Part shown: positions 56,256 through 62,034 of the stretch, piece after piece
Layout of the letters: each line of letters opens with the position of its first letter
Position numbering within the stretch: the stretch's first letter is position 1
Assembly: GCF_009795845.1 (NCBI RefSeq)
Contig: NZ_WTEX01000004.1
Location: 62,001 to 126,000 of the forward strand
DNA length: 64,000 nt
Direction: 5' to 3'
From: Gilliamella sp. Lep-s35
GTDB taxonomy: Bacteria; Pseudomonadota; Gammaproteobacteria; Enterobacterales; Orbaceae
Program-made: the position numbers and the translations under genes
The notes under the pieces: generated by a model
Database searches by the model: none
Seen by the model: only the letters and a program-made list of their open reading frames with translations
Told to the model about the DNA's origin: nothing

Positions 56256-59027
56256 TTAATGTTTAATATAATCAGCCGCCTTTTTACCTGCTTGCGTACC
56301 AAATATAATGATATCGGCAACAGCATTACCACCAATACGATTAGCACCATGTACACCGCCCACAACTTCACCAGCTGCAAATACACCTTGGATTATCTGT
56401 TTATCAGCATCTAATACTTGTGTTTGAGTGTTAATTGTTACCCCTCCCATTGTATGATGGACACCTGGTGCAATTTTTATTGCATAAAAAGGTCCTTTTT
56501 GAATTGGATGACGCATACCAGTAGTTCGCCCAAAGTCTTCATCGTGTTTAGCTGTCACAAATTGATTGTAGCGTTCAACCGTTTTCGCTAATGTTTTACT
56601 ATCAATCGATAGTTTTTGGGCTAATTCCTCAAGCGTATTTGCTTGGCTTACAAGTTCGTTTGAAACATATTCCTCAACAGATCTATTTTCATCTCTAACT
56701 TGTTGATCAAATAGGATATAAGCATAATGTTCAGGTAATTTGATAATTTCAGCTGAAACATTGTCTCTTGTATCAAGTTCATTAACAAAACGTTGACCTT
56801 TTTGCGATACCAATATTGCACCACCACCACGAATAGATTCAGAAATTAAATATGATGTTGTTTGTTCAACTGTTGGATGAATTTGTATTTCACCCATATC
56901 AACAGTTCCTGCGCCTAATTTCTCTAATAACATAATACCAGAACCGGTTGCCCCTTTATGATTGGTAGTGACAAATCCTTTAAGATCAGGGCGATATTTT
57001 TCAACCATTGTAGTATTAGCACTAAATCCGCCTGTTGCAATAATAACGGCTTTGGTTTTTATTAAATGAGTTGAACCATCCTCTTCTGAAACTTTAACAC
57101 CAATAACTTTATGGTTTTCGGTTACAATTTCAGTAACAGCAGTATCAAGCATAACTTCAATATTACGTTTATTAATATTTTTAACTAAACCACTAATTAA
57201 AAAACCACCAACAGCAGCACCACTTTCAGGACGATGAGTTCGATCAATGCTCATTCCCCCCGTTGTGGTAATACCACTTAATTCAATACCGTTATCATCT
57301 AACCAATTAATTGCATTTGGCGCATTTTCAACAAAATAACGCAATAACTCGGGATTATTTTTATTTTTTCCCCCAGCCATTGTTTCTTTATAAAAGAGCT
57401 CTTTATTGTCTACAATACCTTTTAGCTTTTGGAATTTGGTTTCTGCAGCATTCATACCTGCCGAGGCTTTATTAGTATTACCACCAATCACAGACATTTG
57501 CTCGATAATAATGACATTTGCACCAAGATCATGTGCTTGAATCGCCGCAGAAAGCCCTGCTCCGCCACTACCAACAACCACAACATCAAAAGCGCGATCA
57601 TTAGGATCACCACCTTCGGCAATAATTGCTTCTTTATTAGATTTTGCCATCGCTTTAGTTACAGCTTTTTTAAATGCCTCACATTGTGTCGTTGCGCCAG
57701 AAATAGCATCAACATGTGGACTGTTAGAGTCAATAATTCGATGCTTAATTTCAGTAAAATTATTTAATACTTCGCTATCAAAGTTGTTAGCATTAACGAG
57801 TTGTATATCTTTGATAAAATCATTTCCTAATTCAACATTAATCAAAAATTCATAAGATTCATCATTAACTTTTTCTTGATAATTGCCTGGTTTGAATTTT
57901 TTAACATTAAGGTTCACATCCCGAATCAAACTTTCAACAAGCGAAAAATGCCATAAAGGTTCAGGAATATTTAGTTCTTCACGCTTATCACTATTGATAA
58001 AAAGTTCAAGCTTCTCACCTTTTTCAATACGGTCAATCCAATCAGGATAAGCAATACAAGCGCGACCAACCGCAACTAAATCATAGCCATTATTAATAGC
58101 ATCTTCTACATCACTTTGATTAACAACATTTCCGACACCAACAACAGGGATTTTCGCTAATGTTTCAGATCGCATTGCCACATATTTTTTAATTAATGGC
58201 GTTGGATCTTGTGTATCAACAATGGATGGCCTAAGTGTTGTTCCCATTGAAAAATGAATATAATCAAGCCCCTTTTCAGCCAATTTTTCAAGCAAATACA
58301 TAGAATCATCAAAACGAATTCCAGGCACTTCTAACTCTTCTGGTGAAAAACGATATCCAACAATAAATTCAGGAGTTGCATATTGTTTAACCATGTTATG
58401 GGTAACATCTAAGATAGCAAGAGGGAACCTTGTACGATTATCACGATTTCCACCCCATTTATCATTTCGTTGATTTGAATTAGGAGAATAAAATTGTTGA
58501 ATTAAATAAGTATTAGCTCCATGGATTTCTACCCCATCAAACCCTGCTTGAATGGCACGACGTACTGCTTGACCAAATTTGTCAATCATTTCGTCTACTT
58601 CTTCTGCCGTTAATGCAATTGGTGTAGGCGCATTTGGACGTGGGGCTGCAATCGCACTAGGCCCTACTGGTGATTGACCTCCAATTAATTTTGGTTCAAC
58701 CATTCTTCCACCATGATAAACTTGAATAATGGCTTTCGATCCTTTTTCTTTGATCACTTGAGCAATTTTAGCTAAGCCTTCAATCTTATCATCACTATCT
58801 AAACCAATAGCACCAGGGAAAGCTAATCCTTTGTCGTCAACAAATCCACATTCAACAATAATAGTGCCGATTGTTCCTGATCTTGCTCGATAATATTCAA
58901 TTAAATCATGCGTAACAGAACCATCATAAAAACCAGAACAAGTTGTCATTGGAGCCATCATAATACGGTTTTTTAGTTCAGCACCATTAGGCAGTGTCAG
59001 CGATTTAAAAATATTTTCATTTTTCAT
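56256..59027 (-). CDS. Soluble three-domain NADH:fumarate reductase
   Basis: A 923-residue flavoprotein (929 if started at ATG 59045). Numbering from 59045: an old-yellow-enzyme/NADH:flavin oxidoreductase domain at about 10-365 (NGAELKNRIMMAPMTT, FDGVEIHGANTYLIQQF); an FMN_bind domain at about 385-465 with the flavinylation motif DAISGAT, predicted FMN-Thr T452; and an FAD_binding_2 fumarate reductase domain from 485 (VVVVGSGGAGLSAA) to the end (HHTMGGVTIN, GGVHGANRIGG). Klebsiella has a cytoplasmic NADH:fumarate oxidoreductase with this architecture and an adjacent ApbE. It would reoxidise NADH with fumarate without the membrane chain. Confidence 0.9.
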   Translation of the reverse strand: MKNENIFKSLTLPNGAELKNRIMMAPMTTCSGFYDGSVTHDLIEYYRARSGTIGTIIVECGFVDDKGLAFPGAIGLDSDDKIEGLAKIAQVIKEKGSKAIIQVYHGGRMVEPKLIGGQSPVGPSAIAAPRPNAPTPIALTAEEVDEMIDKFGQAVRRAIQAGFDGVEIHGANTYLIQQFYSPNSNQRNDKWGGNRDNRTRFPLAILDVTHNMVKQYATPEFIVGYRFSPEELEVPGIRFDDSMYLLEKLAEKGLDYIHFSMGTTLRPSIVDTQDPTPLIKKYVAMRSETLAKIPVVGVGNVVNQSDVEDAINNGYDLVAVGRACIAYPDWIDRIEKGEKLELFINSDKREELNIPEPLWHFSLVESLIRDVNLNVKKFKPGNYQEKVNDESYEFLINVELGNDFIKDIQLVNANNFDSEVLNNFTEIKHRIIDSNSPHVDAISGATTQCEAFKKAVTKAMAKSNKEAIIAEGGDPNDRAFDVVVVGSGGAGLSAAIQAHDLGANVIIIEQMSVIGGNTNKASAGMNAAETKFQKLKGIVDNKELFYKETMAGGKNKNNPELLRYFVENAPNAINWLDDNGIELSGITTTGGMSIDRTHRPESGAAVGGFLISGLVKNINKRNIEVMLDTAVTEIVTENHKVIGVKVSEEDGSTHLIKTKAVIIATGGFSANTTMVEKYRPDLKGFVTTNHKGATGSGIMLLEKLGAGTVDMGEIQIHPTVEQTTSYLISESIRGGGAILVSQKGQRFVNELDTRDNVSAEIIKLPEHYAYILFDQQVRDENRSVEEYVSNELVSQANTLEELAQKLSIDSKTLAKTVERYNQFVTAKHDEDFGRTTGMRHPIQKGPFYAIKIAPGVHHTMGGVTINTQTQVLDADKQIIQGVFAAGEVVGGVHGANRIGGNAVADIIIFGTQAGKKAADYIKH

Positions 59028-59254
59028 TTTTATATACCTAATCATTATTATTTAACCTTAAAAGCTACTGATAATGATAACATTAACAATAGTGATTCTC
59101 CAATTACATTAATTTCATTAATGCCTGTTTTGCTAATAGTAAATAGTGATTAGTATCATTTTTTCGACAAACTTTTTTTAGTTTTATTAGTTAATTAAAA
59201 AATTATTAATATAAATAAAGTAAAATTCTGTCAATTTTTGATGTTTTATTGTGC

Positions 59255-59279: not shown

Positions 59280-59339
59280 AATCTAAAAAAAAACACTTTA
59301 ACCTTTTCATTTAGTTATATATTTTTTGTAATTTTCATG

Positions 59340-59367
59340 TTGAACTTTAAATTATCTGAGATAAAAT
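59340..59367 (+). promoter_or_regulatory. Promoter of the dihydroorotate dehydrogenase leader
   Basis: A -35 TTGAAC and a -10 TAAAAT are separated by 16 bp. The predicted start near 59374 gives a leader of about 200 nt containing a leader ORF and a terminator. Confidence 0.5.
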
Positions 59368-59399
59368 ATTTTGAAGTATAACGCCAAGAGACTATCGGA

Positions 59400-59603
59400 A
59401 TGTTTGTAATACCAATTAACAGATTAAAATCAACTTTCGATTTTTTATTTATTCTATTTTTTAATCCTCCTTTATGGAGGATTTTTTTTGGCTTTAAACC
59501 TCATATCTATCCATTTTTCTTTTATTACATATTAATAGTCAATTTTTCGTTGAGAATACGCACAATCAGGAGACAGTATGAAATCTTTAACCCCTTTTTA
59601 TGA
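59400..59603 (+). CDS. Putative leader peptide of a pyrBI-type attenuator
   Basis: A 67-codon ORF begins at ATG 59400 with AAGAG 9 nt upstream. It runs through a U-rich tract (59440-59462) and straight across an intrinsic terminator (59464-59489), ending 26 nt inside the next gene. It is rich in Phe, Ile and Leu because of the U-tracts, and resembles no protein family. In E. coli pyrBI, a leader peptide ORF spans the U-rich pause region and attenuator in the same way, so that ribosomes close behind a UTP-starved polymerase prevent termination. The role is inferred from architecture. Confidence 0.55.
   Translation: MFVIPINRLKSTFDFLFILFFNPPLWRIFFGFKPHIYPFFFYYILIVNFSLRIRTIRRQYEIFNPFL
59464..59489 (+). 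terminator. Attenuator in the dihydroorotate dehydrogenase leader
   Basis: ATCCTCC and GGAGGAT form a perfect 7-bp stem with a 5-nt loop followed by seven T. It stands about 90 nt before the structural gene and about 115 nt after the predicted transcription start, with U-rich RNA directly upstream. Confidence 0.85.
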
Positions 59604-60627
59604 TCCAACTATAAGTTATGAAGATAATTATGCTCAAGGTCCATTTGGACTTTTTAAGCAATTAGATAAAGCACAACAAGTCTCAACAAAACCTTCAAAT
59701 TTTTTAAATGTTGAGGTTAATTTACCATTTGGTCAACCTGCAGGCCCACTACTAAACGCAAACTATATCAAAGCTGCTTTTGCTTATGGATTCGACTTAT
59801 GTGTATATAAGACAGTAAGAACTAAATTACATAAATGTCATCCATTACCTAATGTTTTGTCAGTTCATCCTAACGGTAAATTGTCATCTAACTTAGATAC
59901 TGTGCTAGCCGATACCAATTACAATCAACCATTATCAATAACCAATTCGTTTGGTGTTCCCTCTTTTTCGCCTGATGTTTGGCAACCAGATATGGCTGAT
60001 GCAGTAAAATCTGCGGGTCATGGACAATGTGTTATTGGTAGTTTTCAAGGTACACAAGGTAACGGCGAAATTGAAAAAGATTATGCTTTAGCCGCAAAAT
60101 TAGTTAAAGAAACCAATGCACCTATTCTTGAAGCAAATTTAAGTTGCCCAAATGAAGGTGCTAGCAAGTTACTTTGCTTTGATGTTGATAAAGTTGAACG
60201 AATTGTTAATGAAATTAAAACTGCAGTACCTGATCGTCCACTTATCTTAAAGTTAGCTTATTTTCCTGATGATGAAAGGATCGTTTCTTTATTAACCCGC
60301 GTAGGTTCCATTATCGACGGTTTAAGTGCAATCAACACACTATCAGCTAAACCAGTTGATGCTAAAGGTAATCCTGCTTTAGGTGAAAATAGAAAAGAAG
60401 GCGGTGTCTGTGGCGATGCAATTCGTTGGGCTGGTTTAGATATGGTAAGTCGTTTAGCTAAATATCGTAAACAAATGGATCTAAAATTTGCTATTGTGGG
60501 CGTCGGTGGAGTTAGTTCTAGTGAACATTATCATCAATTTATAAAAAATGGTGCTGATGCAGTTATGAGTGCAACTGGTGCCATGTGGAATCCACTCCTT
60601 GCAATAGAAATAAAAAAGAGTCTTTAG
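59578..60627 (+). CDS. pyrD: Class 1-type dihydroorotate dehydrogenase
   Basis: A 349-residue FMN TIM-barrel protein of the dihydroorotate dehydrogenase superfamily. ANLSCPNEG with C190 matches the Cys catalytic base of class 1 enzymes; class 2 enterics use Ser. FGQPAGPLLNANYIK lies near the N-terminus, and IVGVGGVSSSEHYHQFIKNG with ADAVMSATG forms the FMN phosphate site. There is no N-terminal membrane helix, so it is soluble. Class 1A enzymes pass electrons to fumarate, and a fumarate reductase cassette is divergent from it. The pyrBI-like leader supports a pyrimidine role. Compared with typical 1A (about 311 residues) it has extra N-terminal residues, so another dihydropyrimidine-type activity is not excluded. 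GGAG precedes the ATG. Confidence 0.75.
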   Translation: MKSLTPFYDPTISYEDNYAQGPFGLFKQLDKAQQVSTKPSNFLNVEVNLPFGQPAGPLLNANYIKAAFAYGFDLCVYKTVRTKLHKCHPLPNVLSVHPNGKLSSNLDTVLADTNYNQPLSITNSFGVPSFSPDVWQPDMADAVKSAGHGQCVIGSFQGTQGNGEIEKDYALAAKLVKETNAPILEANLSCPNEGASKLLCFDVDKVERIVNEIKTAVPDRPLILKLAYFPDDERIVSLLTRVGSIIDGLSAINTLSAKPVDAKGNPALGENRKEGGVCGDAIRWAGLDMVSRLAKYRKQMDLKFAIVGVGGVSSSEHYHQFIKNGADAVMSATGAMWNPLLAIEIKKSL

Positions 60628-60658: not shown

Positions 60659-60681
60659 ACAGGGCATTATGCCCTGTTTTT
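60659..60681 (+). terminator. Intrinsic terminator of pyrD
   Basis: ACAGGGCA and TGCCCTGT pair around a 3-nt loop, followed by TTTT. Confidence 0.88.
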
Positions 60682-60811: not shown

Positions 60812-61637
60812 GGGTAAGTGTTTTTTAAATTCAACGAGAGGCAAGTAGCCTAACGAAGAATGTAATCGTTTATGATTATACCAATAAGCATAAGCCGAAA
60901 AAGCGCGTTGTAACTCAGCTGCTTAGTTAAAACGTTGGCCTTTTACAAATTCCGTTTTAATTGTTTTAAATGTCGCTTCCGCTACCGCATTGTCATAAGG
61001 ACATCTTTTCTTGCTTAATGAATGCGTGATATTAAATGTCTTAAAACAATCCGCTAATAGCCGATTATCAAACTCTTTACCTCGGTCTGAATGAAATAAA
61101 TCTAATTTCGATAATGGCAGTTTAATTTGGCTTAATGCCGACATAACAAGCTCTGCTGTTTTATGTTGACCAACATGGTAACCGACAATTTGCCTATCGG
61201 ATAAGTTCACTAAAACACATAAATAGTTCCAACGTTGCTTAACTTGAATATAGGTTAAATCCGCAACAACAATTTGTTTTTTATCACCGACATCAAATTG
61301 TCGTTGCAGGTGATTTTCTGCGGCGGTTTCATTCACTGCCGTAGTGTGAGATTGATAGCGTTTAACGGTGTATTTTGATACCAGCAATAAAGCTTTCATC
61401 ACCCGAGCAATGTAACGGCGTGACACCCAAATATTCTCTTTCTATAAATCAAAACGAATTCGCCTTGTGCCATAAGACTGATAGCTTTGATTAAATAGTG
61501 TCACGATTTTATCGGCATAAAGCCCTACTGATTTTTGTCTATTCAATTTACACTAATAATAAGCATAATATCTTGATAATCCTAAATATTGACATAGTTT
61601 TGTTATGCTATAACGATGTCGATTTGCTTTTAGGATA
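60812..61637 (-). pseudogene. IS3-family OrfB (DDE transposase), three stops
   Basis: Reads ILKANRHRYSITKLCQYLGL in the HTH_21 region, then after two TAG stops MSRRYIARVMKALLLVSKYT, the integrase core VVADLTYIQVKQRWNYL, LFHSDRGKEFDN and AVAEATFKTIKTE, then a TAA stop and YWYNHKRLHSSLGYLPLVEF. The D-D-E residues remain recognisable. The stops look like single-base changes in an otherwise full-length gene. Confidence 0.85.
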
Positions 61638-61929
61638 GCGATTTTCGCCCTATTATCAGTGCTGCTTGCTTTAGGATATCGTTTTCCATACGGAGTTGTT
61701 TAAGCGCTTTGCGCAACGCGATTAACTCTTGTTCTTGTGGACTGCGATTATCTTTTGTTTTAAATGAGCCGCTTTGGCTTGCTTGCGTTATCCAACGGTC
61801 CAATGCTGATGGTGTCAATTCCTATTTTGCAACGATTTCACTACGTGATTTACCATGTTGATAAAGACTGACCATTTGCTGTTTAAAATCATCTGTGAAT
61901 GTTCGTCTTTTGCGTTTAATCTTATTCAT
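61630..61929 (-). pseudogene. IS3-family OrfA with one internal stop
   Basis: From ATG 61929 the frame reads MNKIKRKRRTFTDDFKQQMV, SLYQHGKSRSEIVAK, a TAG, then ELTPSALDRWITQASQSGSF and a leucine-zipper tail ELIALRKALKQLRMENDIL. This is the HTH_Tnp_1 protein of IS3-family elements. Confidence 0.85.
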
Positions 61930-61973: not shown

Positions 61974-62034
61974 AAAAGTTGTATGATTTAGTGTAGCCGA
62001 TCCATACAATTTGGTGTTCAGTCATTTTTTTCAT
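61974..62034 (-). pseudogene. 5' fragment of a gene interrupted by the IS
   Basis: An ATG at 62034 with AAAGGGGAT 8 nt upstream opens MKKMTEHQIVWIGYTKSYN, then meets the IS right end. Beyond the left end, minus-strand frames are short. The ribosome site is one of the strongest in this region, so a small real gene was probably cut. Family unknown. Confidence 0.4.

Follow-up and report, generated by a model that had tools for sequence, protein, structure and literature searches.

Attenuation by coupling of transcription and translation, without the use of regulatory codons, has its textbook case in the pyrBI operon of E. coli, and the dependence of pyrBI attenuation on UTP is reportedly described in the work of Turnbough. 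Translation-coupled termination before a pyrimidine gene is also found in the E. coli rph-pyrE attenuator, where the translated open reading frame (ORF) is the full gene rph. The E. coli genes pyrD and pyrC are controlled by start-site switching, which acts on translation via an alternative 5' end and involves neither a leader ORF nor a terminator. The attenuators of the trp, his and leu operons combine a leader ORF, pausing and a terminator. For pyrL, the leader of pyrBI, excerpts from two papers state that an advancing ribosome suppresses the terminator and that polymerase and ribosome become coupled through pausing (PMC4824070, PMC5021804), and an excerpt from a third supports a pause in pyrL that is unlikely to depend on an RNA hairpin (PMC9291695).

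In E. coli MG1655, pyrL consists of a leader ORF of 44 codons, a pyrimidine-rich tract and an 8-bp hairpin with eight T inside the ORF, which stops 3 nt before the next gene. The layout of the leader in front of a dihydroorotate dehydrogenase-like (DHODH-like) gene in Gilliamella sp. Lep-s35 matches this closely, with an ORF, a tract, an 8-bp hairpin with T8 within the ORF and a stop near the next gene. The differences from pyrBI are found in the genes, which in the Orbaceae encode a DHODH-like protein and a CodA-like amidohydrolase and not aspartate carbamoyltransferase (ATCase, which was not found in the Orbaceae), in the distance from the leader start to the hairpin (63 nt in the window versus 88 nt in pyrL), in a stem that joins the leader start to the tract, which a similar test did not find in E. 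coli pyrL (z +0.47), and in an extra 32-bp element upstream of the promoter.

The other systems are more distant. The leader ORF in E. coli rph-pyrE is the full gene rph, whereas the corresponding Gilliamella stretches show no visible terminator: none was seen by eye between pyrE and the preceding gene, which we take to be rph-like, in five stretches (L212, L209, L211, L230 and L234). Two others, L225 and L206, lacked this gene arrangement in the stretch at hand and were left out of the comparison. The switching of E. coli pyrD and pyrC concerns what we take to be the same pathway, but the mechanism differs. Unlike the trp, his and leu attenuators, the Orbaceae leaders have no shared run of cognate codons, their peptide is neutral and no antiterminator was predicted by RNAalifold. 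New here are the start-tract pairing, the 32-bp element and the lack of an ATCase over the cut-off in the Orbaceae searched. In the open full text of PMC, no paper was found that joins Gilliamella with pyrimidine and dihydroorotate dehydrogenase, none that joins Gilliamella with aspartate carbamoyltransferase, and none that joins pyrimidine biosynthesis, attenuator, pyrD and leader. The excerpted text of a survey of premature terminators (PMC2965389) gave no match for pyrimidine or for the queried pyr genes. Judging from the comparisons below, two pyrimidine-linked genes appear to carry, throughout the family, a real attenuator of the pyrBI kind that is coupled to translation.

Leader parts in the window

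The window is the whole stretch of 64,000 nt that was analyzed, corresponding to positions 62,001 to 126,000 of contig NZ_WTEX01000004.1. The following features were assigned at the locus.

59286..59317, + strand: conserved 32-bp element 5' of the -35 box, putatively bound by a regulator
59340..59367, + strand: sigma-70-type promoter TTGAAC-16-TAAAAT, with the -35 box TTGAAC at 59340-59345 and the -10 box TAAAAT at 59362-59367
59386..59391, + strand: Shine-Dalgarno-like AAGAGA of the leader ORF, from the sequence and alignments
59394..59400, + strand: putative stem 5' arm ATCGGAA in the leader start region, from family-level pair counts
59400..59603, + strand: leader ORF of 67 codons with ATG at 59400, running through the terminator and ending 26 nt inside the DHODH-like gene
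59434..59462, + strand: U-rich tract with 21 T in 29 nt, candidate UTP-sensitive pause region
59435..59441, + strand: putative stem 3' arm TTTCGAT, pairing with the leader start region
59463..59489, + strand: intrinsic terminator (attenuator) with an 8-bp stem, a 5-nt loop and T8
59578..60627, + strand: DHODH-like gene, 349 aa, with a PF01180 match
60659..60677, + strand: terminator-like site 3' of the DHODH-like gene

Hexamers similar to those of the promoter are present at the matching position in the alignment of Gilliamella leaders, and the transcription start was estimated to lie near 59374. The attenuator hairpin, AATCCTCC-TTTAT-GGAGGATT, spans 59463-59483 with a predicted energy of -11.4 kcal/mol, and its run of eight T covers 59482-59489. 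Since the ATG of the gene is located at 59578 and the leader ORF ends at 59603, the two overlap by 26 nt. An earlier note on this sequence had pointed out this overlap together with a promoter-like pair, a leader ORF with its own ribosome site, a U-rich tract and a terminator inside the ORF, and all of these parts were recovered in place. The same note had described a perfect GC hairpin with seven T; the hairpin is there, but its stem is not purely GC (4 G-C pairs among the 8 bp) and the run consists of eight T.

Taken alone, the parts in the window are at chance level. Between 59100 and 60900, counted on both strands of this AT-rich stretch, there were 7 promoter-like sites as compared to 10.0 in shuffles, and 2 terminators as compared to 1.0, neither of which is beyond chance. 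The predicted fold of the whole leader in the window was likewise not beyond chance (z -1.16). The significance of the parts comes from the comparison among relatives. The upstream neighbour at 56256-59045 is divergently oriented and encodes a protein of 929 aa in which an old-yellow-enzyme-like part is fused to a flavocytochrome c part. Behind the DHODH-like gene, transposase-like ORFs were seen by eye on the minus strand at window positions 60923-61929.

Conservation of the terminator in the Orbaceae

The hairpin pattern CCTCCN{3,6}GGRGGATTTTTT was searched in 44 Orbaceae genomes, with the reversed pattern as the control. The set includes the window genome (G000) as well as Schmidhempelia (G041), Frischella (G001), Orbus (G037) and Zophobihabitans (G043). 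The pattern was found in all 44 genomes with 81 matches, as compared to a single match for the reversed control. By coordinates, 79 of the 81 matches are located 42-97 nt ahead of one of two gene types, with 33 before a DHODH-like gene and 46 before a gene for an amidohydrolase of 338-339 aa. One more, in G033, was assigned from the sequence to an amidohydrolase start at a contig end. A match in Schmidhempelia (G041:C111) was set aside, since it is a plain terminator that follows a different gene, which by eye resembles a synthase.

Within the genus of the window, the terminator precedes the DHODH-like gene in 32 of the 34 genomes that hold this gene, the exceptions being the diverged G028 and G029, and it is also present before the DHODH-like gene of Schmidhempelia G041. 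The CodA-like amidohydrolase gene is preceded by the hairpin in each of the 42 Orbaceae genomes that hold it; in the Lep-s35 genome, this second attenuator lies before the gene at G000:C18:37512-38602 (L186). In eight genomes of other genera, the two genes are neighbours, the amidohydrolase gene preceding the DHODH-like gene at a distance of 30-276 nt, and the hairpin lies ahead of the pair. In Gilliamella and in G041, the two genes are apart, each with its own attenuator except in G028 and G029. From this arrangement we infer an ancestral operon attenuator that today exists twice. The pyrBI architecture recognized in the earlier note, with the terminator overlapped by the leader ORF, is conserved in the relatives. 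Its proposal that the pyrBI logic had been placed on a pyrD-type gene agrees with what was found there and is incomplete, since the amidohydrolase gene carries the same attenuator and is the upstream neighbour in those eight genomes.

Open frame and peptide of the leader

Of 78 leaders, 77 contain an ORF that begins with ATG or GTG 45-110 nt before the hairpin and extends up to it, as compared to a mean of 15.6 (sd 3.5, maximum 25) in 100 dinucleotide shuffles; this set consists of related sequences, including five near-identical copies from G029, and leaves out the G033 amidohydrolase leader. The sole miss is the amidohydrolase leader of G028 (L266), the ORF of which ends about 11 nt before the hairpin, as judged by eye. 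For the DHODH-like leaders, the frame is open to the end of the hairpin in 30 of 30, while the other two frames are open in 0 and 4 of 30. Three leaders were dropped from this codon test (L006, L026 and L027), of which L006 is a frame-shifted leader with a different frame that is also open through the hairpin, and L026 is the same leader as L019, still counted in the 33-row T and Shine-Dalgarno counts.

In eight independent close pairs of DHODH-like leaders, the substitutions were spread as 18, 19 and 22 over codon positions 1, 2 and 3, and the synonymous fraction was 0.23 versus a neutral expectation of 0.21. These numbers suggest that the leader frame is kept while the peptide drifts neutrally. 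Because the peptide is neutral and the frame open, the act of translation as such, rather than the peptide, seems to count.

The frame also tends to stay open 3' of the hairpin: in 26 of 30 leaders, no stop codon occurs until at most 10 nt before the DHODH-like start, as compared to 13 of 60 for the other two frames, and 14 of 32 leader stops form an ATGA overlap. Among the amidohydrolase leaders, the frame of the ORF with respect to the hairpin varies, and each of the three possibilities occurs. In seven of them, the stop codon falls precisely on the base of the hairpin, and a ribosome terminating there would still shield the 5' arm. A Shine-Dalgarno-like motif 5-16 nt upstream of the leader start was found in only 22 of 33 rows.

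U-rich tract and pairing with the leader start

The fraction of T was 0.57 in the 30 nt before the hairpin versus 0.23 in the preceding 30 nt (31 leaders). An excess of T before the hairpin over the sequence further upstream was seen in all 33 DHODH-like rows, of which one is a duplicate, and in 23 of 31 amidohydrolase leaders; in front of the amidohydrolase genes, the tract is weaker and only moderately U-rich. The earlier note had named loss of the leader ORF and U-tract in relatives as evidence against its reading; the two are conserved, with the frame open in 30 of 30 leaders and T enriched throughout the 33 DHODH-like rows.

In most DHODH-like leaders, the tract is complementary to the Shine-Dalgarno region of the leader (for example AAAGAGAAU with AUUCUCUUU). 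In the majority of the amidohydrolase leaders, the segment complementary to the tract is formed by codons 4-9 (AUCAACAAU with AUUGUUGAU, or AUCAAUAAU with AUUAUUGAU). The native pairing in 31 DHODH-like leaders (L026 and L027 dropped) was -10.95 versus -9.24 when permuted between genomes, with 0 of 20,000 permutations doing as well; the corresponding numbers were 11 of 50,000 with 20 hand-chosen representatives and 1 of 20,000 for 31 amidohydrolase rows, in which the start used for L182 is an upstream ATG whose ORF ends early. As the leaders are related, these permutations and the counts that follow are non-independent.

Pair counts were made on alignments A1 (without L006, L012, L016 and L027) and A2 (without L174). 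The DHODH-like helix is paired in 77.5% of the cells, with a whole-structure covariation of 0.140 versus at most 0.101 for slid versions. The amidohydrolase helix is paired in 78.1% of the cells, with a covariation of 0.319 versus at most 0.210 and with 25 double-change cells versus 10.9 in shuffles. Two of the five pair measures per alignment were within the shuffles (84 and 121 of 500 for the DHODH-like leaders, 487 and 457 of 500 for the amidohydrolase leaders). RNAalifold predicted the terminator alone in both leader alignments, with neither a start-tract stem nor an antiterminator, so the stem rests on the pair counts and permutation tests.

The stem of the window itself, AUCGGAA with UUUCGAU, is short and not beyond shuffles (z -0.8), although it does form in the fold predicted for the transcript preceding the terminator. 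The mean z of the 31 leaders was -1.9, with positive values in L003, L019 and L021. In eight amidohydrolase leaders, the divergent L180-L182, L193-L195 and L201 and also L178, the stem is weak or located elsewhere. A start-burying stem that covaries in the relatives is moderately supported by these alignments. It could alternatively be a polymerase pause hairpin, and either role would be compatible with the model proposed below.

The 32-bp upstream element

A search for AAAAAWAAYAYTNYAASNWTTTCATTTANTTA with at most two mismatches gave 80 matches in 43 of the 44 Orbaceae genomes (absent from G002) and none for the reversed control. An attenuator hairpin follows at 139-225 nt in 79 of the 80 matches, and the remaining one is at a contig end (G017:C31). 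Across the Orbaceae, the element is thus almost confined to promoters of DHODH-like or amidohydrolase genes, and it is likely to represent the site of a regulator.

The two genes and the pyrimidine pathway

In the 2.47-Mb genome, no gene other than the DHODH-like one matched PF01180 above the family cut-off. The product of the DHODH-like gene is 99% identical to a protein of Gilliamella sp. Choc5-1, the nearest named relative. Going by its AlphaFold model (pLDDT 91.8), the protein is a DHODH by fold: the first 39 Foldseek matches were DHODHs, with human class 2 DHODHs on top, followed by dihydropyrimidine dehydrogenase. The gene had been described in the earlier note as a class 1-type pyrD. 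This is consistent with the cysteine of the SCPN motif, C190, which is invariant in 31 of 31 chosen homologues and which we take to be the catalytic cysteine and a mark of class 1. However, NCBIfam assigned no class to the protein, its best score of 82.5 bits being far below every class cut-off (269 for that model), and Foldseek placed a human class 2 enzyme first. A second, typical DHODH is present in G028, G029, G042, G043 and four genomes of genus g3. The one in G028, the only one scanned, is class 1-type and adjoins a gene resembling the class 1B electron-transfer subunit, below the cut-off of that model. For the amidohydrolase, the best NCBIfam match was PRK06886, annotated as hypothetical protein, with cytosine deaminases next.

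The genes for the amidohydrolase, the DHODH-like protein, pyrE and pyrF are consecutive in two betaproteobacterial MAGs (L082 scanned, L041 by eye). In the Orbaceae, pyrE was found over the cut-off in 43 of 44 genomes and a match to the OMP decarboxylase family in 44 of 44, whereas aspartate carbamoyltransferase was found over the cut-off in none of the 44. Each of 42 genomes contains one carbamoyltransferase, which in Lep-s35 is of the ornithine type. A PyrC of the TIGR00856 type, the only dihydroorotase type searched, is present in 5 of the 44 genomes and absent from 39. The role of the DHODH-like gene in pyrimidine synthesis, also put forward in the earlier note, is thus partly supported: the gene order with pyrE and pyrF speaks for it, yet ATCase was not detected.

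Proposed mechanism and alternative explanations

Based on the leader anatomy and its conservation, coupling of leader translation to termination is very likely. UTP is the probable signal, as suggested by the function of the genes and by the tract. On balance, we expect the attenuator before the DHODH-like gene to be run by coupled leader translation, as in E. coli pyrBI; the interpretation of the earlier note is, overall, partly supported.

From what can be read in the sequences, namely the parts, their conservation, the open frame with its neutral peptide and the covariation of the stem, we infer a course of termination and read-through with UTP as the signal and the stem as a lock. Transcription would begin near 59374. 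At high UTP, the polymerase would cross the U-rich tract fast with no ribosome close behind, and without a close ribosome the hairpin at 59463 would fold and transcription would stop before the DHODH-like gene. At low UTP, the polymerase would slow down in the tract while a ribosome loads on the leader and follows closely; this ribosome would occupy the 5' arm of the hairpin, and transcription would pass. In most leaders, the frame of the ribosome would then continue to the gene start. The start-tract stem is probably the lock, in that the leader start would be buried if the tract comes out without a loaded ribosome.

A more specific version, which we put forward tentatively, is a nucleotide-timed lock, in which the tract would serve both as a UTP-sensitive brake and as the strand that buries the start, and in which the outcome would be decided by ribosome loading before the polymerase leaves the tract. 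It would act on a dedicated two-gene regulon with its own 32-bp element in a family with no detectable ATCase, and for this last reason the pyrimidine pathway would have to be fed in another way.

It is rather unlikely that the attenuator is translation-coupled and senses an input other than UTP, such as CTP, the general rate of translation or transcription, ppGpp, or a protein acting on pausing. The anatomy reveals the coupling and not the ligand, the tract before the amidohydrolase genes is only moderately U-rich, and the separate 32-bp element suggests another input; however, both genes group with pyrimidine steps, and the U-rich tract is placed where pyrL has its pyrimidine-rich one.

A riboswitch or a protein-bound leader, in which the ORF is incidental, would account for a covarying stem besides the terminator. 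We consider this improbable, since the Rfam scan of the window gave only the SRP RNA and one tRNA, with no match in the leader, the alignments contain little conserved loop sequence, and the ORF is kept open far above the shuffles.

Classical amino-acid attenuation, in which the ribosome would stall at cognate codons, is very improbable, and so is an arrest peptide, for which the Pro-Pro pair in the hairpin would be a candidate. The peptide is neutral, the frame changes between leaders and no run of three of one residue is common (at most 1 of 30 DHODH-like and 4 of 31 amidohydrolase leaders), although the leader ORF and terminator are the usual parts of such systems and two or more Ile are present in all 30 DHODH-like leaders and in 20 of 31 amidohydrolase leaders. 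Pro-Pro is encoded in the hairpin by most DHODH-like leaders, but the pair is a consequence of the hairpin sequence, and leaders read in a different frame do not have it.

Intrinsic terminators are common, and G041:C111 provides a plain one among the 81 matches, but the view that the hairpin simply ends transcription from upstream and that the ORF arose by chance is hardly credible here, given the divergent upstream gene at 56256-59045, the conserved promoter in between and the ORF in 77 of 78 leaders.

With pyrBI-like coupled translation as the preferred explanation, the Orbaceae would offer a second, family-wide coupling attenuator that acts on other genes and in which frames have changed naturally and the leader evolves neutrally. 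Selection appears to keep the open frame and the hairpin strongly, and the tract and the start-burying stem less strictly. The leaders would thus form an independent set for testing the contributions of polymerase speed and ribosome loading to termination. The DHODH-like enzyme and the CodA-like amidohydrolase are marked as a likely regulon in bee-gut bacteria with no detectable ATCase, which may be a clue to an unusual pyrimidine route.

Homologues and duplicated loci

Close homologues of the DHODH-like gene (64-71%) were found in Commensalibacter and Neisseriaceae/Snodgrassella records (L028, L029, L030, L032, L033 and L036), which suggests gene transfer. The hairpin pattern was not found within 400 nt upstream of the DHODH-like gene in these six records. 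Phage records contained distant homologues only, in 15 records and all with less than 60% identity. In G029, five amidohydrolase loci were observed on C1, C2 and C3 (L267-L271), with near-identical leaders that each contain the hairpin; three of the genes are degenerate. The five loci point to a repeated duplication.
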